Below are positions 6,699 through 22,916 of a stretch of DNA of 64,000 nucleotides, in pieces. Source of the DNA: Nostoc linckia FACHB-104 (GTDB taxonomy: Bacteria; Cyanobacteriota; Cyanobacteriia; Cyanobacteriales; Nostocaceae). The stretch covers positions 1 through 64,000 of the forward strand of contig NZ_JACJQJ010000005.1 in NCBI RefSeq assembly GCF_014696615.1, given 5' to 3'. Position 1 is the first letter of the stretch; each line of letters opens with the position of its first letter. The translations under genes were made by a program, and so were the position numbers. The notes beneath the pieces were generated by a model. That model searched no databases, had not been told where the DNA came from, and worked only from the letters and a program-made list of their open reading frames with translations.

Positions 6699-7310
6699 CT
6701 AATCAAGTACCTGCTGGTTAGGATAAAGGTTTGTAGCTATAGCTAGGAATGTACTATCCCCAATGACTACACCAGGTGAGAGAGTAGATCCAGCCCCCAC
6801 AAACACATCATTACCAATTTTGACCTTCTTGACATACAACATTAAATTTTGCTTGCGGGGCTTGATTATATGGGAAGAAATAGTGACACGATGTCCCATA
6901 ATTACGCGATCGCCTATTTCTATTAAACCGCGATCGGCAATCTCTAATCCTGGTGTCCAATAAACATCTCGCCCTACTTTAGCTCCCCACAATCGCAACC
7001 ATAACGAAAAAGCACCGGGAATCAATCGCAATATTGCTTCCAATACAGGAATTGCAATATAAATTACCTGAATTTGATGGCTACCCCACCAAGGACTATA
7101 TGAGTTACCACGTAAATAACTAATACCTTCCTGCACAGGATACACCCATTGATGTAAGCGGTAAACTAGCACAGGTAATCCATAAATAGAAACGAATACT
7201 GCCATAATGCTAAAGACGCTGGGTGAATAAGCGAGGTAGAATATTGCAGCCCCAGTTAGTATTAATATCAGGGTAGGAAAAAATAAAAGAATTGTACTTA
7301 AAATTGTCAT
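6699..7310 (-). CDS. Hexapeptide-repeat acyltransferase, WcaF/LbH family
   Basis: Membrane-associated left-handed beta-helix acyltransferase. The first 50 residues hold two hydrophobic helices. The C-terminal half has imperfect hexapeptide repeats (IGDRVIMG, VTISSHI, VKIGNDVFVGAGSTLSPGVVIGDST) that build the acetyl-CoA or acyl-CoA binding helix. The frame is open nine codons further upstream, but that extension is encoded by a repeat of GGGCATA units, so ATG at 7310 (203 residues) is preferred. It is the last gene of a codirectional run with the hydroxylase, Rieske oxygenase, ferredoxin and adenine deaminase (68 bp from the hydroxylase). This suggests it acylates the product of that run, but the acceptor is unknown. 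Confidence 0.8.
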   Translation of the reverse strand: MTILSTILLFFPTLILILTGAAIFYLAYSPSVFSIMAVFVSIYGLPVLVYRLHQWVYPVQEGISYLRGNSYSPWWGSHQIQVIYIAIPVLEAILRLIPGAFSLWLRLWGAKVGRDVYWTPGLEIADRGLIEIGDRVIMGHRVTISSHIIKPRKQNLMLYVKKVKIGNDVFVGAGSTLSPGVVIGDSTFLAIATNLYPNQQVLD

Positions 7311-7378
7311 ATAAATAGGGCATTGGGCATAGGGCATTGGGCATAGAAAGAGATATGCTCATGCCTTTTTTGTAAATC

Positions 7379-8125
7379 TTATGAAAATGGCCATAAAAGT
7401 TTTTGGCTTAATGATAAAGAAGTAGAAATTCCCATATTTGTAGGTAAATTTTTGCTTTCGTAATAAGTTTTATGTAGCTTATCCCACAATTTTAAGTTAG
7501 CACCATAATTGCAATTAAAAACTTCGCTGCAATGATGCCATGCATGATCCTGGGGTAATATTAACCAGGGAAATACAAATCGATATAGCCAGCTATTTTC
7601 ATCAATCATCAAGCGGCTATGTCGCCATAAATCTAGGGCAGAAGTCAGACTAACCCCTAGCAAATAAGCCGTTGGCTCGGATAGAAGATACAAAAATAAA
7701 GTGTGTATCCATAAATAAATTATTAACAAACTTGTCCACAGCGTATTACGAGAAGTACCTAATACATCCATCTGCGTCACAGTATGATGCACTTGATGTA
7801 CTTGCCACAGAAATTTACTATGTAATAAACGATGATTCCAATAATATAGATAATCAACTACAATAAAACTGATAATAAAAGACAAAATAGGTGAGATTTG
7901 TAATATCCCCTTTGAGTGTGGTAATAAATAATGGTAAAATTCATAAACTAAAGTAGCCTGTAATAAAGGAATAATAATTCCTTGAATCGTTAATCCTACA
8001 CCATCTAAAAGCCAATCTTCACGACTTTTGAGTTGAAATTGAGTTCTGCAAAATTGATTATTGATTGTCCATCCAAGCAAGAAAATAAATGCAATAAAAA
8101 TGATAATTTGTGCCAAATTATGCAT
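7379..8125 (-). CDS. Fatty acid hydroxylase / sterol desaturase superfamily membrane enzyme
   Basis: Integral-membrane di-iron oxygenase of 248 residues with four to five hydrophobic helices. The histidine boxes are complete: His98-x3-His102 (WNHRLLH), His110-x2-His113-His114 (HQVHH), a lone His169 and His194-x2-His197-His198 (HAWHH). These ligate the two irons in this superfamily, which hydroxylates or desaturates lipid, sterol or carotenoid substrates. The gene lies 53 bp downstream of a Rieske oxygenase and two genes from a ferredoxin that could supply electrons. The superfamily is certain; the substrate cannot be read from the sequence. Base composition is AT-rich, like the neighbouring acyltransferase. 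Confidence 0.88.
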   Translation of the reverse strand: MHNLAQIIIFIAFIFLLGWTINNQFCRTQFQLKSREDWLLDGVGLTIQGIIIPLLQATLVYEFYHYLLPHSKGILQISPILSFIISFIVVDYLYYWNHRLLHSKFLWQVHQVHHTVTQMDVLGTSRNTLWTSLLIIYLWIHTLFLYLLSEPTAYLLGVSLTSALDLWRHSRLMIDENSWLYRFVFPWLILPQDHAWHHCSEVFNCNYGANLKLWDKLHKTYYESKNLPTNMGISTSLSLSQKLLWPFS

Positions 8126-8178
8126 AATGAATAATTCTAAAAATTTTTATAAACAATATAACTTGATATGAATTACTA

Positions 8179-9201
8179 TCAAACCCAAAATGTTACCTTG
8201 AGCGATTGATTGGGCAAAAGTCGCGGATCTTCACCACGAGAAATTGCTGTTCTAATTGACTCTACAAACACATGAATTGTGTCCGCAGGAGTGTTAGAAA
8301 ATTGTGTACCGTATTTAGCGATCGCTTCTCCCTGAATACCCAAAATTTCAATGTCCTGGCGGATAATATGTTGAGCAGTCCACCACACCAAAGGACGTGC
8401 TAGCTTGTTCCAGATGCCATAGTTGTAGGTGACATCTGTATAAACCAGAGTGGAATTATCGCTTTCTGGGATAGATTGACTGGTAATGAACAGATGGCGA
8501 TCGCGCCCCATTTTATATTCCACAGAAGTAATATTAGGCATATAAAAGCGATCGCAATGTTTAATCTCTGCACCTTCACCATTAAGAAATCGGCTATACC
8601 AGCCTAAATTACTAGTTTCGTGACGATACTCTACTAAAACTGCGCCATTTTCCCGTTCCACAGTCATTTCTAACTTTTGTTGGCGAGAGGTACGGAATAC
8701 ACCAGGATGTACAAAAGCTGTGTGGGGAATATCAATAAAATTCTCTGCACAATTAGTAACGTTGTTAGCAAAACGGTTAATTACCCGCACCGTTTCCCAA
8801 CCAGGTTCTCCATAATTTGGCATAGAAAATGGCTGAAACTCTTCGCTGGGAGTCTCCGCTAACCGCACATATATATAACCATCCTGTTCTTTAGTGGCGT
8901 AACGCTTGGCTTGACGCTGCTGCGAAGGTTTGAAATCTTCTCCTTCAGCCGGAACTGCAATCACCTTGCCATTTTCATCGTATACCCAACCATGATAAGG
9001 ACATTGCAAAGCCCCTGCACAGACTTTACCAGTTGATAGACGACTACTGCGATGCAAACAGCGATCGCGCAACGCTACAGGTTGTCCATCTTCGCCACGA
9101 AATATTGCTAGCCACTCGCCTAAAACAGTTCTTGCTAATACCTTGTTTGGTGGTAGTTGCTCACTGAGTGCGACAATATACCAAAAATCTGCAAATTGCA
9201 T
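8179..9201 (-). CDS. Rieske non-heme iron oxygenase, copy 1
   Basis: Oxygenase alpha-subunit-type protein of 340 residues. The Rieske [2Fe-2S] site is Cys48-x-His50 and Cys67-x2-His70. The mononuclear iron site is seen in the segment with Asp158, His160 and His165 (IDIPHTAFVH). A helix near residues 280-290 (RQDIEILGIQGE) probably supplies the acidic ligand. It resembles single-component vanillate-demethylase and PaO-like enzymes more than the two KshA-like copies further along. The gene starts 31 bp after the ferredoxin gene, a likely electron donor, and is followed by a membrane hydroxylase. Chemistry is inferred from family; the substrate is unknown. Confidence 0.9.
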   Translation of the reverse strand: MQFADFWYIVALSEQLPPNKVLARTVLGEWLAIFRGEDGQPVALRDRCLHRSSRLSTGKVCAGALQCPYHGWVYDENGKVIAVPAEGEDFKPSQQRQAKRYATKEQDGYIYVRLAETPSEEFQPFSMPNYGEPGWETVRVINRFANNVTNCAENFIDIPHTAFVHPGVFRTSRQQKLEMTVERENGAVLVEYRHETSNLGWYSRFLNGEGAEIKHCDRFYMPNITSVEYKMGRDRHLFITSQSIPESDNSTLVYTDVTYNYGIWNKLARPLVWWTAQHIIRQDIEILGIQGEAIAKYGTQFSNTPADTIHVFVESIRTAISRGEDPRLLPNQSLKVTFWV

Positions 9202-9232
9202 AGTTGATAGTGGGGATTGCTGAGAGCGATCG

Positions 9233-9517
9233 TTAGGTTATGCGAATTTCAATATTATTTGTGAGTTCAATCTGACAGACTAATCGTGCCTTTTTATTAT
9301 CGGGAGCTAATGCATCTAGCATTTCTTGTTCATCAGGTTTGGGCGGAGGAATTTCACCAATCACCTCAACCAAGCAAGTTCCGCAAATACCAGTGCGACA
9401 ACCAAATAATACAGGTGAATTTTGAATTGTCAGATGCTCTGATAAATTCTGATGGGGGGACAAATTAATAGAGGAATAGTTAGTTTCCGGAAAGGATATT
9501 TTACAGAGTTCAGGCAT
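9233..9517 (-). CDS. Plant-type [2Fe-2S] ferredoxin
   Basis: Small soluble electron carrier of 94 residues with the plant-type cluster ligands Cys40, Cys45, Cys48 and Cys81 (FGCRTGICGTC and LVCQIE). The arrangement fits ferredoxins that serve oxygenases. The spacing Cys-x4-Cys-x2-Cys is canonical. It starts 6 bp after the adenine deaminase stop and ends 31 bp before a Rieske oxygenase, so it is almost certainly cotranscribed and probably feeds the oxygenase and perhaps the membrane hydroxylase. No reductase gene is visible nearby; ferredoxin-NADP reductase elsewhere in the genome could serve. Confidence 0.92.
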   Translation of the reverse strand: MPELCKISFPETNYSSINLSPHQNLSEHLTIQNSPVLFGCRTGICGTCLVEVIGEIPPPKPDEQEMLDALAPDNKKARLVCQIELTNNIEIRIT

Positions 9518-9523
9518 AATTCA

Positions 9524-11158
9524 TCAATTAACCCATAGGGACACAAACTTAAAATCTTTACCACTAAACAAGCCGCGATCGCTTAATTTTAAATCTGGAA
9601 TTACTAGCAATGCCATGAACGCAAGCGTCATAAATGGTGCTGCAAGAATAGTACCAAGCTGTTTTGCCCAAGCATCCAACTGGGCGTATTGTTGTGCAAC
9701 TTTGTAGCCATCTTCTGTACTCATCAATCCAGCTACAGGTAAAGCTAGCACTTGCACAGTATTTCCGTCAGCTACAGCAATACCTCCTTGAGTGCGAATT
9801 ATGGCATTTACCGCCGCACAAATTTCTTTATCACTTGTCCCCACTGCCACAATGTTATGGGAATCATGAGCCACGCTAGAAGCGATCGCACCTCGTTTGA
9901 GTCCAAAGTTATGTATTAATGCAACAGATGGTGAAGTATTTTGATAACGATTAACAACAGTAATTTTCAGAACATCATTTTCGATATCTGCGGTAACTTC
10001 GTTATTTTGAATATGGGCAGGTAAGTGATTTTCTTCTGTAATTAACTGCCCGTCAATTGCTGTAATTACACGTACAATTGAGCCGTTTTTAGGAATGCGA
10101 AAATCTCCTTCTTCTTTTGGATTAGTGAGAAAGTAATTTATCGGTGTTACTGGCACAGATTTCAGAATAGATTGTCCTTCTTTCGCTGCTAAAATTCCCT
10201 TGCAATAGGTAGAAATTACGGTAAATTCTTGTAAGTTGTTCACTACAATAAAATCGGCAGCATCTCCAACTTGCAGCAATCCTACATTTATTTTGTAGTG
10301 CCATACAGGATTGATACAGGCAATTTGCAGTACATTCATCAAATTATGCCCTAAGGCTACAGCACGCTGTACCAGTACGTTAATATGTCCTTTAACTAAA
10401 TCATGGGGATGCTTATCATCACTACAAAACATACATTGATTTGGGTGAGAATCAATCAAGCTGTGTAGTGCATCAAAATTTTTGGCTGCTGAACCCTCAC
10501 GAATCAGAATTTGCATTCCGAATGCAAGTTTATCTAGGGCTTCTGCTAAGGTGCTGCATTCGTGGTCTGTAGTAATTTTAGCATTAGCATAGCTACGTGC
10601 TTGCTCTCCACATAGCCCCGGTGCGTGTCCATCAATTGGATATCCTAATCTTTGGGCAATAGAAATTTTATCCATCACCTCGGCTGTGCGATTTAAAACC
10701 CCAGGAACGTTCATCACTTCGCTGAGGTAAGTGATACCATCCTGCTCAAAAAGTTCGTGAATTTCTGTGGCTGTCAGTTTTGCGCCTGCTGTTTCAAACT
10801 CAGTTGCGGGTACGCAGGAAGGCGCACCAAAAACAATTGTAAATGGTGTTTGGGCAGCATTGGCAAGCATAAAACGAATACCTGCTAACCCCAAGACATT
10901 GGCAATTTCATGTGGATCACAAACGGCTGCAACTGTACCATGTACCGTTGCGAGACGAGAAAATTCTGTAGGTACAAGCATTGAACTTTCGATATGAACG
11001 TGGGCATCAATAAAACCAGGAAGGATATATTGATTGTAAATTTGCCCATATTCAGGTGTTATGGCTTGAATATGCCCGTTATTGATGAAGACTGTTCCCG
11101 GAAATATGGTTTTGTGGAGAACGTCTACGATGTTTCCTGAAAGGCTAAACTTTTCCAT
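9524..11158 (-). CDS. ade: Adenine deaminase (Ade/YicP amidohydrolase family)
   Basis: Converts adenine to hypoxanthine and ammonia in purine salvage. The metal-binding signatures are present: FIDAHVHIESSM, CDPHEIANV, IDGHAPGL and FCSDDKHPHDL. The C-terminal domain carries HDSHNIVAVG and PVAGLMS, typical of the family. The frame extends upstream to a TTG at 11248, but no ribosome binding site fits there. ATG at 11158 has AGAAGG at good spacing and gives 544 residues, near the family length. The stop lies only 6 bp from the ferredoxin gene, so this gene appears to head the oxygenase operon, an unexpected partner for a salvage enzyme. Confidence 0.88.
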   Translation of the reverse strand: MEKFSLSGNIVDVLHKTIFPGTVFINNGHIQAITPEYGQIYNQYILPGFIDAHVHIESSMLVPTEFSRLATVHGTVAAVCDPHEIANVLGLAGIRFMLANAAQTPFTIVFGAPSCVPATEFETAGAKLTATEIHELFEQDGITYLSEVMNVPGVLNRTAEVMDKISIAQRLGYPIDGHAPGLCGEQARSYANAKITTDHECSTLAEALDKLAFGMQILIREGSAAKNFDALHSLIDSHPNQCMFCSDDKHPHDLVKGHINVLVQRAVALGHNLMNVLQIACINPVWHYKINVGLLQVGDAADFIVVNNLQEFTVISTYCKGILAAKEGQSILKSVPVTPINYFLTNPKEEGDFRIPKNGSIVRVITAIDGQLITEENHLPAHIQNNEVTADIENDVLKITVVNRYQNTSPSVALIHNFGLKRGAIASSVAHDSHNIVAVGTSDKEICAAVNAIIRTQGGIAVADGNTVQVLALPVAGLMSTEDGYKVAQQYAQLDAWAKQLGTILAAPFMTLAFMALLVIPDLKLSDRGLFSGKDFKFVSLWVN

Positions 11159-11311
11159 AACCCACCTTCTGGCACTATCACGAGTAATGAAGAGTTGCCC
11201 GTCTACATTTAAGTATAAAATGATTTGCTTCCTACGAAACTTGGGCAATAAAAACCGTAAAAATACTTAAACAAAAATCTGCTAAAAGTAATCAAGGGTA
11301 GGATAGACACT

Positions 11312-11434
11312 AATACTGCTCGGTTAAGGATTTTCTACTCGGAATTTGGTTTGGGGAAATGGTGAAAGGGTAAGGGTTAAAGGTTTTTTCTTGCCCTTTT
11401 CCCCTTCCCCTTTTGCCCTTAACCGACAAGTATT
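11312..11434. repeat. Inverted-repeat element, copy 1 (MITE-like), with flanking direct repeat
   Basis: A 123-base element with terminal inverted repeats AATACTGCTCGGTTAAG and CTTAACCGACAAGTATT. Its interior is purine-rich then pyrimidine-rich, so the whole could fold on itself. The sequence GGATAGACACTAAT occurs at 11301-11314 and again at 11436-11449, consistent with a target-site duplication. Related copies lie at 24924-25047 and 44292-44415. It has no coding capacity. The surrounding spacer 11159-11526 contains nothing else I can identify. Confidence 0.75.
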
Positions 11435-11526
11435 GGGATAGACACTAATGATCGTAATGCCCACCCTACAAATAATTTTGCTAAACTCTCAAATCCAAAG
11501 TTGATTACTCTGGCTTTATTGATACA

Positions 11527-11718
11527 TCAAACATCAACATTTATCTGTTCTATCTGTCTAGCAGCTTTCTCCCACAGCTTTGCTGAATGTTCGTCTTGCC
11601 AATGAGTTCTCAAATTTTCTGCTTTTTTGTGGCATAAGCGCTCTAACATTTCTAAAATTGCAGATAATGTCAATTTATCAAGTAATGTTTCTAGAATCTC
11701 CATATATTCTTTATGCAT
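11527..11718 (-). CDS. Small conserved-looking protein of unknown function
   Basis: A 63-residue acidic-to-neutral, probably all-helical protein (MHKEYMEILETLLDKLTL...) with no membrane segment and no recognisable domain. An AGAGG ribosome binding site stands about eight bases before the ATG, which argues for a real gene. It lies 91 bp downstream of the AurF-like gene on the same strand and could share its transcript. I do not recognise the family. Confidence 0.5.
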   Translation of the reverse strand: MHKEYMEILETLLDKLTLSAILEMLERLCHKKAENLRTHWQDEHSAKLWEKAARQIEQINVDV

Positions 11719-11809
11719 GATATTTACCTCTTGTATGTCTACTGATATATTCTGACAAAAGCTATGTAGATAACTTTTGTTTTATCAAATATATAGATTA
11801 AGATTTATT

Positions 11810-12985
11810 TCAATTTTGATAAGTTTTAAACCTTTGCAAAGCACTTTTTTGAGTTGCTAAATATCGAGCTAGGGAATTAGCTCCCATGATTGACATTTCT
11901 CGATTCTGTTGCCAAAGATAATCAAGCTTTTCGACATATACTTTATAAGATGCCATTGCTTCTTGATGGGTGGAAAAACTGCGATGCAAGCCTTCCGATT
12001 CTTCAGTAAAACAGCGACGCATCATTTCTTTAGCATCATTATCGCTCATAGAAAAAATTGGCGATCGCAACACTTGATAAATTTTGCTATATAGTGCTGG
12101 ATCGTACCAGAAAATACCGTTAATTGCTGCTGAAAAGTGAAAGTGATCGCGCTGACATCCCAGCAATCCTAAATTAGCAACTAGGCTCTCAAATGCCGTC
12201 GGTGCTGGAAGAAAGGTAACGACATCGTGAGATATAATTGTCGAACTATTAAAGTGAAAGCTTTCATCAAGAAAGTGGTAGTAAGAGATTTTTGCAGGAA
12301 CAGGCGCAGTTTCAGGATGAGGATGTTTCTGATAATAATTGCTGAGTTTATGCTGGACTAATTTACCATTCAGTGTCCGCACGCCTCTGACTGTGAAATA
12401 TTGACAAGCTAAAAATGTATTATTTGCAGAAATTAAACCAAAGTATTGCAGTTGAAGTTTTTTCCACCAACTTTTCAGTGCGTTTGTGTCAGCATAAACC
12501 ATCGTTTCGGTAAACGGGCCGCGCATCGGGTAAGTAAAGATGAGTTCTCCAAATAATGCTTGCTCAACCTGTTTAGCGATTGTGCGAAAAGCATTAATAT
12601 GCGCTCTTTCTTGGGAAGATTCTAAATCTAAAGTATCGCAGATTAAGCGGAAATCTTCGTAAGCATAAAGTCCGGCTGCGCTAGTTTGATTAAAATATAT
12701 AGTGGCAATTTCAGCAGAAACAATTTGCGAGTAGTATGCTACCCAGTAAAGTTGATTTAAAATAACACGCTGATGTGGGCTAGATTGTTCCCATAGAGGT
12801 GTACCGTAGAGTAGGGAAAATTCTTCGGGATTCCAATATTCGTTTTGGCAATCTTCATAGCGAAAGTTGGCGGTTGCTTCATCCATTAAAGCAGTATGAT
12901 CCTGCTGCTTATTGCGGGTGTGGTTAATTTGTAATTTCCGATAAGTTGTTAGATTTTCTGTTAACTGGTGAATAGTATTTGTCAT
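11810..12985 (-). CDS. AurF/CmlI-like di-iron oxygenase
   Basis: A 391-residue protein whose ligand pattern matches di-iron N-oxygenases such as AurF and CmlI. Glu92 lies in a helix (SAEIAT), Glu126-x2-His129 in ERAH, and His237-x3-Glu241-x2-His244 in HFLDESFH. The last pattern is the seven-ligand signature that sets AurF apart from ordinary ferritin-like proteins. That family oxidises arylamines to nitro groups, but distant members may act on other substrates. The gene sits among Rieske oxygenases and a second di-iron protein. Its length is somewhat above AurF (about 336 residues), with an extra N-terminal helix and C-terminal tail. The fold assignment rests on the motif only; activity is inference. 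Confidence 0.7.
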   Translation of the reverse strand: MTNTIHQLTENLTTYRKLQINHTRNKQQDHTALMDEATANFRYEDCQNEYWNPEEFSLLYGTPLWEQSSPHQRVILNQLYWVAYYSQIVSAEIATIYFNQTSAAGLYAYEDFRLICDTLDLESSQERAHINAFRTIAKQVEQALFGELIFTYPMRGPFTETMVYADTNALKSWWKKLQLQYFGLISANNTFLACQYFTVRGVRTLNGKLVQHKLSNYYQKHPHPETAPVPAKISYYHFLDESFHFNSSTIISHDVVTFLPAPTAFESLVANLGLLGCQRDHFHFSAAINGIFWYDPALYSKIYQVLRSPIFSMSDNDAKEMMRRCFTEESEGLHRSFSTHQEAMASYKVYVEKLDYLWQQNREMSIMGANSLARYLATQKSALQRFKTYQN

Positions 12986-13184
12986 AAAAAAATTTATAGA
13001 TATGATTCTTTAAATATGAGGTAAAAGGCAAGGCTAAAAAGGTAATAAGGGCTTAAATTACTGTATTTATTTCATTTGTAGCCTATAGCGTGGCGTTTTT
13101 TAAGCTAGCAGTAATGCTTCTTGATCATTGTGCAAGATGTAAAGTAGAAGATAAGCACAAGTCATAAAACTTACTACAATCGCT

Positions 13185-13934
13185 ATGAGCCTTTTTTGTC
13201 TAGTTCACGGTGCGTTTCAAGGCGCTTGGTGTTGGGATTTTTTAATTCCTTATTTAGAAGCCCAAGGTCACAAAACAGTAGCAATGGATTTGCCAATTGA
13301 AGATGCATCTGCAAGTTTATCGCAATTTGCTGATGTAGTACTTCAAGCCCTACCCAAAACTGATGATGATATTGTTTTAGTTGGTCATTCAATGGCTGGT
13401 ACATTTATTCCTCTTGTGGCTGAAGCGCATCAAGTACGTCAATTGGTATTCCTGAATGCGCTGATTCCATACCCTGGAATTAGTACAATTGATCAATTTT
13501 CTCATAACCTCGATAGGGATAGTCTTAAATCATTAAATTACGAACCAAAAGATGTAAGTCAACTGGCACAATTTAATGATGAACCTGATATGTTTAAGCC
13601 GGATTCTGTTGGTAGAGACTATTCAGATAAAGCAGTATTGATGGAACTGTTCTATCACGATTGTGAACTAAATATAATGCACTGGGCGCTTGCAAAAAGT
13701 CGTTCACAGCAATCAATGGCATATATTTTTGAGCCTAATCCTTTGAAATATTTACCAAAAATAGAGTGTAGATATATTGTGTGTACAGATGACCGAATAA
13801 TTTCTCCAGCATGGTCACGCTACGCTGCACGTAAGCGTTTGGGCGTTGATGTTATTGAAATGCCTGGAGGACATTGTCCCCATTTGTCTCGTCCTGATCA
13901 CCTTGCCTCCATATTGACTAATTTTAATTATTAA
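13185..13934 (+). CDS. Alpha/beta hydrolase (esterase / hydroxynitrile-lyase-like)
   Basis: A 249-residue soluble hydrolase. Features include the oxyanion segment LVHGAFQGAW near the N-terminus, the nucleophile Ser69 in GHSMAG, an acid in CTDDRII, and a catalytic His in GGHCPHLSRP near residue 230. The pattern fits the plant methylesterase and hydroxynitrile-lyase branch, which bacteria also carry. It is the only plus-strand gene in the oxygenase region and its end overlaps the convergent di-iron gene by 4 bp. It may hydrolyse an ester intermediate of the cluster, but that is guesswork. Confidence 0.85.
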   Translation: MSLFCLVHGAFQGAWCWDFLIPYLEAQGHKTVAMDLPIEDASASLSQFADVVLQALPKTDDDIVLVGHSMAGTFIPLVAEAHQVRQLVFLNALIPYPGISTIDQFSHNLDRDSLKSLNYEPKDVSQLAQFNDEPDMFKPDSVGRDYSDKAVLMELFYHDCELNIMHWALAKSRSQQSMAYIFEPNPLKYLPKIECRYIVCTDDRIISPAWSRYAARKRLGVDVIEMPGGHCPHLSRPDHLASILTNFNY

Positions 13935-14848
13935 TACACACATTTATCAGGTGGGAGTGGTTGAAATGCGTCTCGTTCGTCTAAAGCTTGTACAATAGCT
14001 TCTGCAGATGCACCGCGCATAAGCGATCGCAATATCTCTAATCGGGTTCCACTGTGGGTTTGTGTATCTAGTTCTTCGAGGATTTGGATTTTTTGCGATC
14101 GCGAAAGATGTCCTTTCACCTGCTCAATTGCTGATAGAACACTTTGCGGCCCTACCTGTACCATCGATAGAAAGCTGGCTAATACCTCAATTGCGGCTGC
14201 TTTACTTGTTGCCGAAACAGGATTGCGCTTAAATAGCATTGTTCCTGTACCATGATGGCGAGATTCTGCTTGGATAAAACTGGAGAAAAGTTCTCTTAAA
14301 ATTGGATGATGACACTCTTTAGACAAGCGGCGGTAATGGCTTAATCCCCATCCTTCTAAAACTACTTGCAGCACAAACAACAATACTGTTTTATCTGCAC
14401 TTTCAACTACTTCTGCTAATAAATTCAAAAATGGATCGTTGCTACTAGTTGATGCAATTACTGGTAAAAAATTAATGATTTGGCTGAGGTGAGTAGCCTC
14501 ATCAGCGCTAAAAATTGCGTAGAGCATTCGCTCTTCCACTGTTTCGGCTAACAATACCATTTTTGCCATGTAACCAACGCCAGCTTTTTCAATAAAGTAA
14601 GATTCTGCTAATAAGCTACAATTCGTAAGTTGAAGTATGGCAGACTGTTCATCTAAACTCGCTTGTTGGAAAATTTTTACCTGATGTAAATTAAAAAATT
14701 CTGCATCCCAATAATCTGATTGCTGCTGTGCAGTCTTATCGCTTTTATTAGGTAATGCTGCTGTTAATATTCGCCCCAATTTATCATCAGAATTGATATG
14801 CGGTAAATCGAGTCCAGCAATTTTATATGACAAATCAATGGTTTTCAT
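13931..14848 (-). CDS. Ferritin-like di-iron protein, coupled to Rieske copy 2
   Basis: A 305-residue protein with a four-helix-bundle di-iron pattern: Glu82 (or Glu87), Glu117-x2-His120 (DEATH), Glu165 (LEGWG) and Glu195-x2-His198 (AESRHH). This is the class I ferritin-like arrangement of acyl-ACP desaturases, MiaE and related oxidases. The C-terminal 80 residues form a separate helical region ending in PPDKCVY. The frame is open further upstream, but ATG at 14848 overlaps the end of the preceding Rieske gene by 14 bp and there is no independent ribosome binding site, pointing to translational coupling. A joint function with that Rieske enzyme is likely; the reaction is unknown. Confidence 0.72.
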   Translation of the reverse strand: MKTIDLSYKIAGLDLPHINSDDKLGRILTAALPNKSDKTAQQQSDYWDAEFFNLHQVKIFQQASLDEQSAILQLTNCSLLAESYFIEKAGVGYMAKMVLLAETVEERMLYAIFSADEATHLSQIINFLPVIASTSSNDPFLNLLAEVVESADKTVLLFVLQVVLEGWGLSHYRRLSKECHHPILRELFSSFIQAESRHHGTGTMLFKRNPVSATSKAAAIEVLASFLSMVQVGPQSVLSAIEQVKGHLSRSQKIQILEELDTQTHSGTRLEILRSLMRGASAEAIVQALDERDAFQPLPPDKCVY

Positions 14849-15884
14849 GTTCAAATAAGGATGCAGATGAAATAGGAGAATCAACAGTTTCCCAAGTTCC
14901 CCAGCTTAAAGCTTTTTGCTGGTTGACGTGTTGGATAAATTGCAGAATTGACTGATCTGCTTTAGTAGGAGTTTTTAAATCAAATTGAATTGTTTGAAAG
15001 ACTTGGGTATCACCTTTAGCAAAGTAATTACCAACCTGCTGCGTTAACCACAATAATGCACGATTTATACTCCATCCTAAACATCCATTTCGCTTAGGAG
15101 TTACGAGAATTGTTTGCCCTTCAGTTTTGCCATCTTCTAACATTCGCAACGTAAAGATAATATAGAAATGCAGAAAATCTGGGCCTAGTGTTACAGTACC
15201 AGTGCTGCCATACCAATAGCACATACTATAAGTCACCTCATTGCGATATAGAGGGCGAATTAAACGAATTAGGCAGGAATCATCGCCTCCTCTTGTAGTG
15301 TTGCTGAAGGTAATAGCATTAGAGTTGAGGTTTTGAGCATCAAAGACAATCTCTAAAGGTAGATTGTGTACTGTATTGAAATGGTGAGCATCAATTGCAT
15401 TAATTAATAACACATTGGGATGGCAATTTTTGACAAACCGAGTTCCTAATATATAGTCGCACTCTACGTTTTCTAGTTCCGGTACAAAAGGTAATTTACT
15501 TGGCTTATCCTCTCCCACCCAAACCCAAATCATGCCATATTTTTCTGCTGTTGACCAAGTTTTAATACATACAGGTAAGGGTTTTCCCAATGAAGGAACC
15601 TCTACACAAATTCCGCGCTCATCGTATTTCCAATTATGAAAAAAGCAGCGAATTCCTTCACCTTCTACTTTACCTTCTGCTAAATGTGCGCCCATGTGTG
15701 GACAATAAGCATCCACCGCTATTACTTGTCCACTAGCTCCGCGATAAATTGCGAGATTTCTACCTAGTAGGGTTATAGCTTTTACTTTGCCAACTTTTAA
15801 CTGTTTTGATGGTAGTGCCCAATACCATCCCTCAACAAATAGTTTGGGATTGTTAAAAATAGAGGTTGGGCTAGTAGAATGCAT
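14835..15884 (-). CDS. Rieske oxygenase, copy 2 (KshA / DAF-36 / Neverland-like)
   Basis: A 349-residue Rieske oxygenase. The [2Fe-2S] site is Cys61-x-His63 and Cys80-x2-His83 (CPHMGAHL, CFFHNW). The mononuclear iron site is Asp165-x2-His168-x4-His173 (IDAHHFNTVH). The segment CPHMGAHLAEGKVEGEGIRC closely resembles the KshA and Neverland class, which acts on steroid or sterol rings. The enzyme is paralogous to copy 3 at 18863-19885: both share the GWY-A-PS opening and the D-x2-H-x4-H site. The stop overlaps the start of the di-iron gene. The family is firm; a terpenoid or steroid-like substrate is only suggested by homology. Confidence 0.88.
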   Translation of the reverse strand: MHSTSPTSIFNNPKLFVEGWYWALPSKQLKVGKVKAITLLGRNLAIYRGASGQVIAVDAYCPHMGAHLAEGKVEGEGIRCFFHNWKYDERGICVEVPSLGKPLPVCIKTWSTAEKYGMIWVWVGEDKPSKLPFVPELENVECDYILGTRFVKNCHPNVLLINAIDAHHFNTVHNLPLEIVFDAQNLNSNAITFSNTTRGGDDSCLIRLIRPLYRNEVTYSMCYWYGSTGTVTLGPDFLHFYIIFTLRMLEDGKTEGQTILVTPKRNGCLGWSINRALLWLTQQVGNYFAKGDTQVFQTIQFDLKTPTKADQSILQFIQHVNQQKALSWGTWETVDSPISSASLFEHENH

Positions 15885-15932
15885 ATAATGATTGGAATTA
15901 GAAAATATTAATTATTTAAAATAATTTATTGG

Positions 15933-15962
15933 TGGTGCGTTAGGCTTCGCCGTAACGCACCA
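15933..15962. repeat. GGTGCGTTA-type palindromic repeat
   Basis: Perfect ten-base arms TGGTGCGTTA and TAACGCACCA, with the spacer GGCTTCGCCG itself partly self-complementary. It is one of at least six related hairpins in this window (18814, 34912, 42571, 44516, 46226), all between genes. The rest of the spacer 15885-16118 shows nothing else. Confidence 0.75.
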
Positions 15963-16118
15963 TACTAGACTGACACGCCTAAAATGATGCAATAGATTTT
16001 TGATGAAGTTGATTAAATCAATGCTTTCTCGTTTTTCCTAATGCACTATTTTAGCTGTGTCAATCCACTACGATTTAACTATCTACACCCAATGAATCGG
16101 TGTTTATCGGCGGTTAAT

Positions 16119-17819
16119 TCAATCATTTAACTCTAACAACTCTGAAGATTTTAAATTAGCCGCTACAGGTTGAGAAGATTGAGGAGTAATAGAGTAAATA
16201 GCATCTGTAGTTGTTTCAAAACAATTAGATAATCCAATTGTTTGTAACAATCCCGAACGTTCTAATAACTGTTTAACCTGTGGCTGCAAACCTGTGAGAA
16301 TTAAACGACAATTATGCCTTGCCAAATCGTGATAAATATCCTCTAAAGCTACTAATCCAGTTGTGTCCATATTCGGTACAAACCGCAACCGCAAAATTAA
16401 ATACTTCACTTCTGGTTGCTCTCTCAGGAAAGTAACAAACCTTTCCGCAGCACCAAAAAATACGGGGCCATCTACACGATAAACAGCAATTTCTTTGCCT
16501 AATTCTAAAGGAATACCAGGGGGAAATACTTCGGTTTCTGGGATTTTCGCTAAGCTTAAATCGCTCATCCGTTTAATAAATAATGCGCCGGCTGCAATTA
16601 ATCCCACTTCTACAGCCAGAACCAAGTCAAATAATATTGTGACTAACCAGGTGAGAATCATCACCGCAAAGTCAGAGTAGGTAGCGCGTAGCAGTAAGCC
16701 AATGGCTTCCCACTCAATCATCCGCAGACTAACTACCATCAAAATCCCCGCCAATGCTGCTAAGGGAATCTGCGCTGCAAGGGGTGCTAAAGTCAATACA
16801 ATCAGCGCTAAAGCAATGCCGTGAATTACTCCAGACAAGCGGGTTTTACCACCAGAACGGACATTAACTGCAGTCCGCGCGATCGCACCTGTGGCGGGAA
16901 TGCCACCGAAAAATGGAATAATGATATTGGCTAAGCCTTGACCAATTAATTCGCGATCGCTGTTGTGTTTTTCGCTCACAGTCATACCATCAGCCACGAC
17001 TGCTGACAGCAAGGATTCAATACTACCCAGTGCTGCTAAAGCTAAAGCTGGATTAATCAATTCCCGAATTAAGCCAAAATTATTCCAGTGGGGAATACCT
17101 TGTAGCATTGGTAAAGCTTGCGGAATGGCTCCAATGGTGGGAACCTCGAGATGCAAATAAGATGCGATCGCAGTTGCTAACACCAACCCCATCAACGAAC
17201 CGGGTATTGTCGTATTAATCTTGGGCCATAGAAGATTCGTTGCAATTACCAGCATTGCTAATAAAACTGCTGCCCAATTTAACGCTTCTACATGAGTTAG
17301 AGTTTGCCAAAGTCCTGGCAAAAAATGTTCTTGACGCGGTAGTTGTAAGCCAAAGAAATTATTTAATTGACCACAAAAAATAATAACGGCAATCCCATTA
17401 GTAAAACCAGCCGTTACCGGATAGGGAATAAATTTAACTAATTGTCCAAGTTTGGCGACTCCTAAAGCAATCTGGATGATTCCAGCCATTACCCCAGCAA
17501 TCCAAACTTTCTCTAGTCCGTACTTGGCGACAATTCCCACCAAAATTACAGCCATTGCACCTGTAGGGCCTGTAATTTGTACTGGTGAACCGCCAAAAAT
17601 TGCTGCGACAATTCCTGCCACAATAGCAGTGTACAGTCCCGCCTTTGGTTCTACGCCACTAGCCACCGCAAAGGCTAATGCTAAAGGTAAGGCTACCACA
17701 GCAGCCGTCAGTCCTCCCGCGAAATCACCGCGCAGGTTAGTAAACAAGCGATTAACACCAAAAAACTGCGGTGCTTCTACAGTCTTAGTTATTACTATCT
17801 CTTCACTTTTAACTTTCAT
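16119..17819 (-). CDS. SulP-family anion transporter with STAS domain
   Basis: Inner-membrane secondary transporter of 566 residues. The N-terminal 420 residues have about 10 to 12 hydrophobic helices with SulP signatures (DFAGGLTAAVVALPLALAFA, GPTGAMAVILVG, PYPVTAGFTNGIA). The C-terminal 120 residues form a STAS domain (YRVDGPVFFGAAERF, PNMDTTGLVALEDI). SulP proteins carry sulfate or, in the BicA branch, bicarbonate with sodium; the sequence alone does not decide between them. The gene starts 25 bp after the GNAT-like gene, so the two are probably cotranscribed. Its place among oxygenase genes may be accidental. Confidence 0.92.
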   Translation of the reverse strand: MKVKSEEIVITKTVEAPQFFGVNRLFTNLRGDFAGGLTAAVVALPLALAFAVASGVEPKAGLYTAIVAGIVAAIFGGSPVQITGPTGAMAVILVGIVAKYGLEKVWIAGVMAGIIQIALGVAKLGQLVKFIPYPVTAGFTNGIAVIIFCGQLNNFFGLQLPRQEHFLPGLWQTLTHVEALNWAAVLLAMLVIATNLLWPKINTTIPGSLMGLVLATAIASYLHLEVPTIGAIPQALPMLQGIPHWNNFGLIRELINPALALAALGSIESLLSAVVADGMTVSEKHNSDRELIGQGLANIIIPFFGGIPATGAIARTAVNVRSGGKTRLSGVIHGIALALIVLTLAPLAAQIPLAALAGILMVVSLRMIEWEAIGLLLRATYSDFAVMILTWLVTILFDLVLAVEVGLIAAGALFIKRMSDLSLAKIPETEVFPPGIPLELGKEIAVYRVDGPVFFGAAERFVTFLREQPEVKYLILRLRFVPNMDTTGLVALEDIYHDLARHNCRLILTGLQPQVKQLLERSGLLQTIGLSNCFETTTDAIYSITPQSSQPVAANLKSSELLELND

Positions 17820-17844
17820 ACACTAGTTGATAGACGCGTAGGTT

Positions 17845-18585
17845 TTAAATCAGAACCGAATCTTGCACAAATTCTAACAGCGATTCTGAATGCCACATTC
17901 TTTGTCCAGCACGTGTAAGATTGTCATAAGTGATTTCAGTTAAACACACCAATTCATCCCCTTGGCGATAATCTGGGTTTTTTTGTTCAAAAAACAGGAT
18001 ATGGGGGTTAGTCTGTCTTCCTGTAGGAATTTCAATTAAATTATCGCGCAGAATCTGCGGATTTTGGAAGCGAACAATACCACTTGCTGGTTGATAGGAA
18101 TCACCATAATATTGCTGTCCCAAACTCGCTATCAGGTTGGTGATATGGGTAGGTGTAATGGTATTGTGGCGGGGGTAAAACTCTTGCCAAAAAGTTGGGA
18201 GAAAGCGGTAAGTACGAAAGCCAGAACAAATCAGCAGCCAGTATAACTTATTTTCTACATAGTGTTGGCGCAGAAAATTCACAGCATTAATCCAAGAACG
18301 CGGTAGCGTTGTACTCGACCAAGCACTAGGATCAACAATCGTATCGCCGGAATAAATTACACTAATTCGCTCTCCTGCAAAAGTCGTCTGGCTCAACATG
18401 AGAGTTGAAAAGCCTTTCAGGGTATGGGTAATTTCGTCCCGCAACAACAACACCCAGTTTTTACGCTCTAAATCAGCCTGAAAGCCATCCCAGGTTACAC
18501 CTTTAAAATGATTATCTAACAGCGCATACATAGCAATGCGATCGCTTGGGTGCAAATTTTGAACAGGAACCAGCGAACTCTTCAT
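17845..18585 (-). CDS. GNAT-like protein of unknown substrate
   Basis: A 246-residue soluble protein. Residues 40-170 have the look of an acyl-CoA N-acyltransferase fold: a strand-rich segment (LKGFSTLML, ISVIYSGDTIVDP) followed by a helix and YWLLICSGFRTYRFLPTFW. The usual acetyl-CoA loop is not clear, so I call it GNAT-like only. It lies 25 bp upstream of the SulP gene on the same strand. No close characterised relative is known to me. Confidence 0.55.
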   Translation of the reverse strand: MKSSLVPVQNLHPSDRIAMYALLDNHFKGVTWDGFQADLERKNWVLLLRDEITHTLKGFSTLMLSQTTFAGERISVIYSGDTIVDPSAWSSTTLPRSWINAVNFLRQHYVENKLYWLLICSGFRTYRFLPTFWQEFYPRHNTITPTHITNLIASLGQQYYGDSYQPASGIVRFQNPQILRDNLIEIPTGRQTNPHILFFEQKNPDYRQGDELVCLTEITYDNLTRAGQRMWHSESLLEFVQDSVLI

Positions 18586-18813
18586 TATCGGTAATTACTT
18601 AAAAATAATTAGATACAAGCTATCAATTAACACTTTAACGAGTCGGTCGCTAAAGTTACATACTAATGTGACAGATTTTCAAATGGTTATTGAGTAGATT
18701 ATGAATTATGAATTAAAATCAGAAGTATAAGTAATATGTGTTAAATGTATATCTTCGATATAATTTGTCACTAAAAACATTATTAAAGCCTTTTATAGAA
18801 CACCATAAAAGAT

Positions 18814-18842
18814 GGTGCGTTATCCTATGGCATAACACACCC
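18814..18842. repeat. GGTGCGTTA-type palindromic repeat
   Basis: Arms GGTGCGTTAT and ATAACACACC pair with one G-T wobble around an eight-base spacer. It lies just downstream of the third Rieske gene (minus strand) and could help end its transcript, though it lacks a T-run. Confidence 0.65.
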
Positions 18843-18862
18843 TACGATTTAAATTTATTAGC

Positions 18863-19885
18863 TTAATTTTGAATCTTAACTTTTGAACTTACCTCAGATT
18901 TTGACCATCGAGAAGGTTCTAGTTGGTTTACATACTCCATATATTGAGCCAATGGCTGATCGATACTCAAGAGCAATTTAGGATTAAAGCGAATATTATC
19001 GTAAATCTTGCCGTCTTCATCTCTGAGCATATAGTAAGCCAAGCGAGTACAAAATAGCAAAAATTTACTCAGCAGATATCCCACAATTCCTTTACGTTTT
19101 GCAGTTACATAAATAGGTTGAATGCGCGTTCTTCCTGGTGCAATTGGAGTGTAAGCATATATCATGTGCAACGGCGGAAATAGCCGCACATTTTTCATCA
19201 TTGTTAATAAACCAATGCAACCATTAGCATAGCGCATCGAATATTCATATGTAGAACCTAGAAATCTTTGTCCTAACTTTTCTCTCCAGGTTGTTTGAGG
19301 AAATTGTCCCCGCATTGTAAAGTCAATTTGTGTACCTAATTCACTACGATGTAGCGACAAATCCATTTTGATATCTAAATGATGAATTGTTTTTAAATGT
19401 TGAGCATCAATCCCATTCATCATACAAATATGGTGATGGCAACTTCTTTCAAATGCAGTATCAGGTTGTGCAATAATTTCTTTACCTTTCAATTCATCAA
19501 AATTAGGCACACCTTCTGGCGCTACAGCATCAGGATAAACCCAGATAAAACCATACTTTTCTTCTGTTGCATAAGCCTCTACTTTCGCTTGATTCGGAAT
19601 CGCTGATTGACAGGGAATATTTTGACAAATTCCTGTTTCATCAAACGCCCAATGATGAAAAGCACAGCGAATCCAATTACCATCAACCTTTCCGATTCCT
19701 AAATCTGTTCCTAAATGCGGACAGTAAGCATCTAAAGTTCTTACTCGCCCATCTTCACCACGAAAGATAGTAATTTTTTGACCACAAATTTCTACAGACT
19801 TAGCTTTTTTTCGAGCTAATTCTTGACTAGGGCAGGCGATATACCAACCCTTAACTACTATATTCCAGTTGTTAAATATTTGCAT
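18863..19885 (-). CDS. Rieske oxygenase, copy 3 (KshA / Neverland-like)
   Basis: A 340-residue Rieske oxygenase with [2Fe-2S] ligands Cys55-x-His57 and Cys74-x2-His77 (CPHLGTDL, CAFHHW). The mononuclear iron site is Asp160-x2-His163-x4-His168 (IDAQHLKTIH). It is a paralogue of copy 2, with the same opening (GWYIACPSQEL) and the same domain order, but it has diverged well beyond a recent duplication. The C-terminus has a hydrophobic stretch (VGYLLSKFLLFCTRLAYYML) that could associate with membrane. It follows the Mpo1-like gene by 23 bp, so the two are probably one transcript. Confidence 0.88.
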   Translation of the reverse strand: MQIFNNWNIVVKGWYIACPSQELARKKAKSVEICGQKITIFRGEDGRVRTLDAYCPHLGTDLGIGKVDGNWIRCAFHHWAFDETGICQNIPCQSAIPNQAKVEAYATEEKYGFIWVYPDAVAPEGVPNFDELKGKEIIAQPDTAFERSCHHHICMMNGIDAQHLKTIHHLDIKMDLSLHRSELGTQIDFTMRGQFPQTTWREKLGQRFLGSTYEYSMRYANGCIGLLTMMKNVRLFPPLHMIYAYTPIAPGRTRIQPIYVTAKRKGIVGYLLSKFLLFCTRLAYYMLRDEDGKIYDNIRFNPKLLLSIDQPLAQYMEYVNQLEPSRWSKSEVSSKVKIQN

Positions 19886-19908
19886 AATTATTTATTCAAA
19901 AGTTTATT

Positions 19909-20319
19909 TCATATTTTAGATGACTGATAATTATTTAATATTTCCTGCCGTTGGCGAATATCATCTTGATACTTACCTATGATTACTCTGAATAGCATTT
20001 TACCTAAACAGTAAGAAGCGCGCCAAGAAAACACAGCGTCTTGTAAATCTATATGGCTACGCTCAAATAAAAAATGTCCGGTTAATCCAATTAGCTGAGT
20101 TAATGGTAAGCCTAAAAGTAACCAGAAGTTTTGCAACTTCCACGTAAAAAATAGTAAGCCGTAAAAAAAGATGATTCCTACAATATGGAGAGCAATATTA
20201 ATCGGATGTTGATGTTTAAGAACAAAAATATCCCAATAATCTGTAAAAGGATGCTCCTGAATTTGACTATTGATTTTATTTCTCAAATTTTGTTGAAAAT
20301 TATAGTTAACTTGATTCAT
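19909..20319 (-). CDS. DUF962 / Mpo1-like membrane protein
   Basis: A 136-residue protein with two or three hydrophobic helices. The pattern HPINIALHIVG near residue 38 and the later GHFLFERSHID match the DUF962 family. The yeast member Mpo1 is an iron-dependent dioxygenase that shortens 2-hydroxy fatty acids by alpha-oxidation, using histidines in these segments. Bacterial members are mostly uncharacterised. It lies 23 bp upstream of Rieske copy 3 on the same strand. Family membership is likely by pattern; a lipid alpha-oxidation role is inference, though it would suit a 2-hydroxylated lipid made by neighbouring enzymes. Confidence 0.65.
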   Translation of the reverse strand: MNQVNYNFQQNLRNKINSQIQEHPFTDYWDIFVLKHQHPINIALHIVGIIFFYGLLFFTWKLQNFWLLLGLPLTQLIGLTGHFLFERSHIDLQDAVFSWRASYCLGKMLFRVIIGKYQDDIRQRQEILNNYQSSKI

Positions 20320-21070: not shown

Positions 21071-22777
21071 TCATGACAACGGAGACAAAACATTTCCTAA
21101 TCTTTCACGCCCTAAGCGATCGCTTACCTTACCCCCAAAAACAACCCGGACTCCATTAATATAAACCGCTTCCATAATCTCATCTGAACCACGCTTCACC
21201 ATCCGAGGTTCACTATCCAACACAGGATCTAATATTTCCACTTGGGGACTGATTGGCTGATTGAGTGCATTGGGGTTGAGTAAAACGATATCCGCTTTCG
21301 CGCCAACTCTCAGCACCCCTGTATCCAGACGAAACCAAGTAGCGGGTTCTCCTGTAATACGAAAAATCGCCGCTTCCGGTGTCAGAAAATTTGTTGTCAC
21401 CGCTTGTTTCAACAAAGACAAAGCGCCATCATAGTAACCAAGGTTACGCACATGAGCGCCAGCATCAGTAAATCCAGGGAAAATATAAGGATGCTGCATC
21501 ATCGCTAAACGCGGTTTTAAGCGATCATTGGCTCCTGTTGCTACCCAGCGCAAATCTGTATCGTATTTCTGCAAAGCCTGGATAAATAAATCCACAGGTT
21601 CCTGTTGCTTTTGACGGGCAATTTCTGCAAAACTCAACCCTTGCCAACTAGCTTCAGGACAGTCAATAACTTCCATTAAATCTAACCGACGATGAAATGA
21701 TTTCCGCCATTTACTCAGCCATTCTTGACGAAATTGACGACAAAAACTTTCAGATTGCCACAATTTTTCTCTTTCCTGGCGTGACTCACAACCGTTTAGT
21801 TGTGCGCCTGTCGCAAATTCTTCAAATAAAGGAGTAACAGGGCCATCAGAATAAATTGTGAATGGTTCTGTTAGCGTTTGAAAGCGTACATTACCATTAA
21901 GCAGCCGATTCCAGATAAATAGAAGAGGGGAAAATATTCGCCAGAGTTTGCGATTATGTACAGCATCTAAAGCTGAGAGGACAGTTAGCCGCAGCCGCTT
22001 GCCAAACCCCGAACCCATACGCAGAATCTCTACAAAGGAAGCCAGCTTTTGTAAATTGGGAGTGACTTGAAAAACGCGATCGCTTTTCCGACACAAATTA
22101 GCCAGCATCGCATATTCTGTAAATTTCGCGTGTTGCGAAGGAATTGTGTAACCTCGCCATTCGCCACTCATACGATGCCAAGGAAACATATCAATAGAAA
22201 TACCCACAAATCCAGCTTCTAAAGCATCTGCTGCGATTCTCTGCATCAGTTTTAGCTCAAATTTGCTCGGCTGAACGGTTAAGCTGCGTTCTAATCCCAT
22301 CACATGAGCGCGTAAAGCACTATGTCCAAACAAAGGCGCAACATTTGGCCCTAGCGGTAACTGTTGTAAATGCTGTAAATATTCTCCTGGTGTTTGCCAA
22401 GATATTGACTTGTTCAGCCATTTGCCAATTAACCGATGAGATAGCGTTTCGACTCGCTGAAAAATATCTGCCAGCATTTGAGCTTCACCAATGGCAACAG
22501 ATAAACTGCAATTGCCTATTACAACGCTGGTAACACCATGACGCACCGATTCGCTCAATCCTGGTGCAATTTCTAACTCTAAATCATAGTGGGTGTGAAT
22601 ATCGATAAATCCTGGGGTAACCCATAACCCAGAAGCATTAACCACTTCACGCGCTGGGGTAGATAAATTGGGAGCAATATTTACAATCCGGCCATTTTGA
22701 ATCCCAATATCTCCACGAATAGGTGCAGATCCTAAACCATCGAAAATCAAACCGTTTTGAATCAGCAAGTCCAACAT
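21071..22777 (-). CDS. N-acyl-D-amino-acid deacylase / D-aminoacylase-type amidohydrolase
   Basis: Metal-dependent amidohydrolase of 568 residues. The signatures are PGFIDIHTHYDLE near residue 60, GVTSVVIGNCS, and FTDAGAHVRNLGYYD with PEAAIFRITGEPA near the C-terminus. These fit the D-aminoacylase/DAN branch that removes acyl groups from D-amino acids, but several branches share them. The frame extends upstream to a TTG at 22855; ATG at 22777 begins the usual family opening (MLDLLIQNGLIFDG) and is preferred, although no strong ribosome binding site precedes it. It is convergent with the toxin gene. Confidence 0.8.
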   Translation of the reverse strand: MLDLLIQNGLIFDGLGSAPIRGDIGIQNGRIVNIAPNLSTPAREVVNASGLWVTPGFIDIHTHYDLELEIAPGLSESVRHGVTSVVIGNCSLSVAIGEAQMLADIFQRVETLSHRLIGKWLNKSISWQTPGEYLQHLQQLPLGPNVAPLFGHSALRAHVMGLERSLTVQPSKFELKLMQRIAADALEAGFVGISIDMFPWHRMSGEWRGYTIPSQHAKFTEYAMLANLCRKSDRVFQVTPNLQKLASFVEILRMGSGFGKRLRLTVLSALDAVHNRKLWRIFSPLLFIWNRLLNGNVRFQTLTEPFTIYSDGPVTPLFEEFATGAQLNGCESRQEREKLWQSESFCRQFRQEWLSKWRKSFHRRLDLMEVIDCPEASWQGLSFAEIARQKQQEPVDLFIQALQKYDTDLRWVATGANDRLKPRLAMMQHPYIFPGFTDAGAHVRNLGYYDGALSLLKQAVTTNFLTPEAAIFRITGEPATWFRLDTGVLRVGAKADIVLLNPNALNQPISPQVEILDPVLDSEPRMVKRGSDEIMEAVYINGVRVVFGGKVSDRLGRERLGNVLSPLS

Positions 22778-22916
22778 ATAGTGACTGGCAAAAATTATCT
22801 TCCTTGTTCCTTGATATCTTGCACCAATAATCACCTCAGTGTGGATACTGAGCAAATTAACAAAATTACTTAACGCAAATGTAGGCGATCGCTAACCCCA
22901 TCGACTACAAAATGTA

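Follow-up and report, generated by a model that had tools for sequence, protein, structure and literature searches.

The window analysed here, 64,000 nucleotides of Nostoc linckia FACHB-104 (positions 1 to 64,000 of contig NZ_JACJQJ010000005.1; G000:C127:1-64000 in a whole genome of 9.39 Mb), contains an oxygenase-rich gene cluster that is real, conserved and already catalogued as an orphan kind. Its core consists of Rieske oxygenase B, a ferritin-like di-iron protein, an AurF/CylC-type dimetal enzyme (AurF for short), a ferredoxin, Rieske oxygenase C, a fatty acid hydroxylase family protein (FAH), a hexapeptide acyltransferase and a GH3 ligase, to which a GNAT-fold acyltransferase and Rieske oxygenase A are added. 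These genes form one inherited unit and almost certainly one pathway, and the best explanation overall, to which we give an even chance, is that the cluster is the local form of a biosynthetic pathway conserved in several phyla, with a product of N-acyl-amino-lipid type. A first-pass annotation of the same DNA had proposed a joint, undescribed pathway, acting for example on a lipid or hopanoid. The joint pathway stands, on conserved neighbours and co-occurrence, whereas the description as new gives way to clusters listed by Eusebio et al. 2021 and the hopanoid to the distribution of hopene cyclase.

Co-inheritance of the gene set

Eight genes of the set were searched for one by one in 148 genomes of the order. 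AurF, Rieske C, GH3 and FAH have orthologs in exactly the same 28 genomes, which span 12 families and 20 genera, and each group of orthologs is separated from the next match by a gap in identity (AurF 61 versus 36%, Rieske C 63 versus 38%, GH3 47 versus 38%, FAH 44 versus 35%). All 28 cluster genomes also carry the di-iron, acyltransferase, GNAT and Rieske B genes. The acyltransferase is found in these 28 and in one further genome (G029), and the di-iron and GNAT genes each occur in the 28 and five others. The chance of two random sets of 28 out of 148 agreeing is near 10^-30, a figure that is not a true probability because the genomes are related.

Linkage is not needed for the set to be complete. 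In G036 the genes are unlinked yet all present, with AurF at 1.93 Mb, Rieske C at 1.38 Mb, FAH at 1.57 Mb and GH3 at 0.98 Mb, and in G043 they are likewise scattered and all present; together with the window's own genome, where GH3 is on a separate contig, these are the strongest cases. The co-occurrence in other genomes of the order that the first-pass annotation had named as a check is borne out by the identical distribution of four genes. Its joint pathway is upheld because the neighbours are conserved and because presence in the 28 genomes is all-or-none even where the genes are unlinked. About one-fifth of the sampled order carries the pathway.

Conserved neighbourhood

With AurF as the query, 80 named loci were compared; since only 54 of them exceed 19.5 kb, many genes are missing at locus ends. 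The order-level set comprises 30 stretches from 29 genomes, namely 27 of the 28 cluster genomes (the window's own being excluded) plus the partial G137 and G029. At the AurF gene the window comes closest, among named relatives, to Calothrix membranacea FACHB-236 (97%) and to Nostoc carneum NIES-2107 (95%). AurF is present in all 80 loci, followed by the di-iron protein (75), Rieske B (73), ferredoxin (71), Rieske C (66), GNAT (64), Rieske A (62), FAH (60), acyltransferase (55), GH3 (52), Mpo1 (27) and an amidohydrolase (21). The eight core genes occur together in 50 loci, 34 of which also hold GNAT and Rieske A. No further gene family recurs widely around the loci.

Neighbouring pairs are kept across the 80 loci. 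Rieske B adjoins the di-iron gene wherever both are present (72/72), and the same is true of the acyltransferase and FAH (55/55) and of Mpo1 and Rieske A (26/26); GH3 comes directly after the acyltransferase in 50 of the 52 loci that carry the two. All 21 amidohydrolase loci carry Mpo1, and in nine of them the two genes are on the same strand and at most 1.5 kb apart. In the nearest relatives (L069 and L071-L073) the order is Mpo1, Rieske A, GNAT, Rieske B, di-iron, AurF, ferredoxin, Rieske C, FAH, acyltransferase and ligase, some with a few other genes interspersed, and L074 ends at FAH. In many other loci Rieske A lies between AurF and the ferredoxin, and GNAT lies elsewhere. The alpha/beta hydrolase (7/80), an adenine deaminase (4/80) and a SulP transporter (4/80) are insertions confined to few genomes; the hydrolase, which the first-pass annotation had counted with the set, falls outside it.

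Domains, motifs and folds

Pfam matches above the cut-off were obtained for all three Rieske proteins and for Fer2, FA_hydroxylase, Hexapep, Abhydrolase_6 and Mpo1-like domains. The motifs are intact: CxH..CxxH with DxxH..H in each of the three Rieske proteins, CX4CX2C..C in the ferredoxin and three histidine boxes in FAH. A Pfam search with the GNAT-like protein gave no match; its assignment, without sequence support, is confirmed by a good predicted model. The second di-iron protein likewise has no Pfam match above the cut-off, and searches with it and its alignment against PDB sequences returned chance-level matches only. Among 21 aligned copies its E..ExxH..E..ExxH motif is invariant or almost so. 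A paralog of Rieske B, 60% identical, lies elsewhere in the window genome (G000:C118:11739-12728).

The AurF/CylC-type enzyme

The AurF-like protein matches the AurF family (PF11583) below the cut-off (17.1 versus 29.6 bits). With a low-confidence model (predicted local distance difference test, pLDDT, 66), AurF and CmlI made up the six best rows of one structural comparison; Foldseek with the same model found no match at E <= 0.001, and a PDB sequence search with the protein and its alignment found nothing. In a tree, the 28 cyanobacterial copies and two from metagenome-assembled genomes (MAGs) are separated from eight CylC-like proteins with branch support of 100/100. The enzyme is related to the CylC-type proteins and forms a separate clade of its own.

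Six putative metal ligands (E92, E126, H129, H237, E241 and H244) are kept in 107/107 orthologs, and Q125 and D240 are invariant in a 20-copy alignment (A1) and a 10-row alignment. Position 211 is a glutamine in 107/107 orthologs and a glutamate in 8/8 of the CylC-like paralogs aligned; therefore Gln marks the Rieske clade in this sample. The equivalence of Q211 to NocO E252 is deduced from the 27-residue distance to the histidine of HxxDExxH in the paralogs and from the ungapped register from R200.

A second dimetal gene in the window genome, of the CylC type, lies on another contig (G000:C105; L196:34-19465) and is flanked by open reading frames (ORFs) that by eye resemble a fatty-acid ligase, a carrier protein and a large polyketide synthase (PKS). 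Elsewhere, a CylC-type relative of 35% identity that keeps the Glu is followed directly by a ferredoxin-like ORF (L201:7727-9302, G042:C427), a pair that is perhaps intermediate between two cluster kinds. Carriage of the AurF clade on plasmids was considered and rejected; the relatives on four plasmids are outside the clade because they are only 27-32% identical.

The GH3 ligase and a plausible substrate

The ligase, of about 510 residues, is present in 20 of the 30 order-level stretches and absent from the window's cluster. The window genome carries it on another contig (G000:C131:10232-11752) as an open frame with TSGSSG and YRYRIGD, and no other cluster gene lies in the 20 kb examined there. 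Candidate GH3 genes on seven plasmid records were dropped, as the matches are only 26-32% identical. The sole NCBIfam match of the ligase is OlsH, lyso-ornithine lipid synthetase (NF052613; 25.2 bits against a cut-off of 620), and that of FAH is OlsE, ornithine lipid hydroxylase (NF052566; 69 bits against 475). Because these scores are far below the curated cut-offs, the identities of the amine and the acid are guesses; the matches support a likeness in how the proteins may work, not family membership.

The bacterial GH3-like OlsH forms N-acyl ornithine from a fatty acid, ornithine and ATP (PMC12493201). For the related cyanobacterial clusters, the authors of the 2021 study suggested that central fatty acid metabolism provides the substrate in the form of its intermediates and, in their main text, noted no activating enzyme nearby (PMC8406957). 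By analogy with OlsH, GH3 can supply the putative activating enzyme that their description lacks. Taken together, GH3, the fatty acid hydroxylase, the acyltransferases and Mpo1 make a lipid substrate plausible.

In the mechanism that we propose, the GH3 ligase would act like planctomycete OlsH, adenylating a fatty acid and joining it to an amine, and the GNAT and hexapeptide enzymes would attach further acyl groups. The ferredoxin would supply electrons to the three Rieske oxygenases, which together with the membrane hydroxylase and the two di-iron enzymes would oxidise, perhaps chlorinate, the chain or the head group. The product would then be of a heavily oxidised N-acyl-amino-lipid type, an assignment by analogy whose chances we put at even or slightly less. 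A bolder form, in which a pathway of three phyla makes N-acyl lipids of a new class, heavily oxidised and possibly chlorinated, through a Gln-bearing, carrier-free CylC branch acting on a GH3-activated or amide-linked acyl chain, is rather doubtful.

The hopanoid suggested by the first-pass annotation does not fit. Among the 28 cluster genomes, 11 have a hopene cyclase that scores above the cut-off, one has a match below it and 16 have none, which excludes a hopanoid as the general substrate. The cyclase is found above the cut-off in 60 of the 120 other genomes (Fisher p 0.40 against the cluster genomes).

Occurrence in other phyla

The gene set extends beyond cyanobacteria. In a Myxococcota MAG (L177) all eight core genes are present, accompanied by GNAT and a Rieske protein nearest to Rieske A (only 33 and 34% identity). 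The eight are also found with GNAT in an Elusimicrobia MAG (L178), with no Rieske A in the stretch available; further genes there are the amidohydrolase, Mpo1, an SDR, a PAP2 protein and a methyltransferase. The AurF copies of the two MAGs pair together in the tree (99/86), and these data suggest transfer between phyla.

A different cluster combines GNAT and GH3 relatives with a Rieske protein (L180:8320-18894, mirrored in L189) or with a fatty acid desaturase (L181:3252-11734). L180 also has an NQR2 plus FG-GAP/ASPIC-UnbV protein, a fatty acid desaturase and a UDP-glycosyltransferase; UnbV-type proteins occur in enediyne clusters. Relatives of the CylC-homolog gene beyond cyanobacteria were already noted in 2021 (PMC8406957).

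Weighing the explanations

Several observations weigh against the best explanation. GNAT is less specific, with 9 of its 28 copies only 35-39% identical to the window's and with relatives in five non-cluster genomes, two of them at 54%; the di-iron relatives also occur in five genomes that lack the rest. A Rieske B paralog is present in 8/8 sampled members of the window's family, including six that lack the cluster, and at 46-63% identity such paralogs overlap the orthologs (60-100%), so that the two are told apart by family membership and by the two genomes in which both copies occur. GH3 is unlinked in the window genome, L100 likewise has no GH3 after the acyltransferase, and the OlsH and OlsE scores are low, as given above. 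Finally, G029 carries just three of the eight genes searched, namely GNAT, di-iron and acyltransferase, adjacent to one another and in open frames (L098 = G029:C1:1396001-1416000), so that part of the set can exist alone. The G029 trio may be a reduced form of the set, or its three members may be put to another use. We dropped the idea that its di-iron copy is broken: two stops are marked in the matched stretch, yet the frame is open over 303 residues.

The same pathway might instead act on a polycyclic or terpenoid scaffold (triterpenoid, steroid-like or carotenoid), with the Rieske enzymes demethylating or hydroxylating it. Rieske A and B do have 3-ketosteroid 9alpha-hydroxylase (KshA) as their top match among solved structures, and all three Rieske proteins have 4beta-methylsterol monooxygenase SdmA (NF052579) as their top NCBIfam match, but the SdmA scores (Rieske A 68.5, B 79.7 and C 70.8 bits) lie far below the curated cut-off of 600, and hopene cyclase does not follow the cluster. 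The steroid-type assignment was not accepted at such low scores, and we consider this scaffold unlikely. A role in alkaloid tailoring, like that of the Rieske enzymes of saxitoxin, is very improbable and was rejected: SxtDIOX and SxtT are the top solved relatives of Rieske C, but the match is weak and confined to residues 5-199 of 340, the first-ranked family of Rieske A and B is a different one, and FAH, Mpo1 and the acyltransferases point to lipids. Still less credit is due to the reading of unrelated oxygenase genes grouped by chance, or of several short independent operons. It could draw on the genes inserted in few genomes and on the separation, in some loci, of two blocks (Mpo1-Rieske A and the rest), but it is already contradicted by the conserved neighbours and by four genes with identical presence, genomes with unlinked genes included.

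Compatible with the conserved lipid pathway, and not far short of it in our estimate, is the tentative possibility that the AurF-like enzyme is a true CylC-type halogenase that chlorinates an untethered or GH3-derived acyl chain to give a halogenated lipid. Nine active-site residues are listed for dimetal halogenases, of which the Glu is the only one not absolutely conserved, and a small subset of homologs with Gln at this ninth position is still counted by the authors (PMC12101540); the window's enzyme keeps eight of the nine. However, a Glu-to-Ala change at that position abolished chlorination by NocO (PMC12101540), examination of the conserved genes revealed no carrier protein, and the clade stands apart from the eight CylC-like enzymes.

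New here are the inclusion of GH3 and GNAT in the set, the co-inheritance, the Gln as a mark of the clade, the gene content in two other phyla and the finding that hopanoids are excluded as the general substrate. It is unusual for a cluster that lacks PKS and nonribosomal peptide synthetase (NRPS) to encode six predicted O2-dependent enzymes, or seven if Mpo1 is counted. A carrier-free enzyme of the CylC family, if true, would be a useful catalyst for C-H functionalisation, and the all-or-none gene set together with GH3 makes the pathway testable.

Locus layout

The genes are read in the order 20319 to 6699 and are collected below.

Table. Genes of the oxygenase cluster and its surroundings, with positions in the window
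Feature	Position	Strand	Basis
Amidohydrolase (Amidohydro_3 family), accessory companion beyond the first-pass interval	21071..22855	-	Pfam
Mpo1-like protein (2-hydroxy fatty acid dioxygenase family), accessory	19909..20319	-	PF06127 above cut-off
Rieske oxygenase A	18863..19885	-	PF00355; Rieske and mononuclear-iron motifs; top solved relative KshA
GNAT-fold acyltransferase	17845..18585	-	AlphaFold pLDDT 88; Foldseek GNATs, probability 1.0; Pfam none
SulP-family transporter, lineage-specific insertion, non-core	16119..17819	-	PF00916
Rieske oxygenase B	14835..15884	-	PF00355; top solved relative KshA
Ferritin-like di-iron protein	13931..14848	-	E..ExxH..E..ExxH motif in relatives
Alpha/beta hydrolase, convergent lineage-specific insertion, non-core	13185..13934	+	PF12697 (Abhydrolase_6)
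AurF/CylC-type dimetal enzyme, Q211 where CylC-type relatives carry Glu	11810..12985	-	Alignments, tree, weak model
Adenine deaminase, lineage-specific insertion, non-core	9524..11248	-	TIGR01178, 616 bits vs cut-off 472.5
[2Fe-2S] ferredoxin, probable electron donor	9233..9517	-	PF00111 (Fer2); CX4CX2C..C
Rieske oxygenase C (VanA_C)	8179..9201	-	PF00355, PF19112; top solved relatives SxtDIOX, SxtT
Histidine-box fatty acid hydroxylase family protein (FAH)	7379..8125	-	PF04116, 83 bits (sterol desaturase family)
Hexapeptide-repeat acyltransferase, hydrophobic N-terminal stretch	6699..7337	-	PF00132

All eleven genes that the first-pass annotation had named are present at 6699-20319, on ORF and domain, motif or model evidence; it overlooked the adenine deaminase and SulP, both insertions, and the amidohydrolase just outside its interval. 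It was also right in reporting tight spacing with one overlap: measured gaps range from 6 bp (ferredoxin/adenine deaminase) to 53 bp (FAH/Rieske C), with 23 bp for Mpo1/Rieske A, 31 bp for Rieske C/ferredoxin and 41 bp for acyltransferase/FAH. The Rieske B and di-iron ORFs overlap by 50 bp from a TTG start (14884, the longest ORF) or by 14 bp from an ATG (14848), and aligned relatives favour the ATG. In agreement with the first-pass annotation, the protein families found in the group include no PKS, NRPS or terpene synthase. The genome has 16 Rieske matches, and with the 13 others as background the probability of at least three in 10.9 kb is about 6e-7.

Two further genes lie nearby. A ParE-like toxin gene (20747-21043) separates Mpo1 from the amidohydrolase and runs on the opposite strand, and a B12-binding radical SAM protein with DUF4070 (3071-4648) was matched in 2/80 loci, once at only 29% identity.

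Comparison with known systems

A search of the open literature, preprints excluded, found no paper reporting what the Rieske clusters make or mentioning GH3 in connection with them, and neither 'GH3' nor 'auxin' appears in the main text of PMC8406957. Two other known systems share part of the gene content. In the ornithine-lipid enzymes OlsH, OlsI and OlsE (PMC12493201; OlsE from NCBIfam), a GH3 ligase goes with a fatty-acid-hydroxylase-family protein, as here, and in the Elusimicrobia locus a methyltransferase comes directly after GH3. Unlike that system, the cluster adds Rieske and di-iron enzymes, and the alpha/beta hydrolase here is not conserved. The CylC/NocO halogenases (PMC12101540) have in common with the AurF-like enzyme QExxH and HxxDExxH with a further Glu, and the weak model hints at an AurF-like fold. 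The AurF-like orthologs differ in having Gln for Glu, in forming a separate clade and in lacking conserved fatty-acid ligase, carrier and PKS neighbours.

The closest likeness of cluster architecture is with the CylC-homolog clusters of Eusebio et al. 2021. In Synechocystis, their 'PriA-containing' clusters keep the CylC homolog, Rieske and ferritin-like genes together with other functions dispersed, an arrangement that G036 and G078 resemble when compared without PriA, whereas the window cluster is contiguous except for GH3. The window cluster fits the 'Rieske-containing' kind, which accounts for 36 of the 95 clusters described there and has no known product in that account (PMC8406957). As described in the paper's main text, such clusters have two to four Rieske proteins (three in the window), mostly a sterol-desaturase-family protein (the PF04116 protein in the window), a single CylC homolog (one in the window, the authors' own sequences being outside the present tree) and in most cases acyltransferases, and they are found chiefly in Nostocales and Oscillatoriales. 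That text states that the neighbourhoods hold no substrate-activating or carrier proteins; the window too has no activating enzyme in the neighbourhood, but in most of its relatives GH3 belongs to the core.

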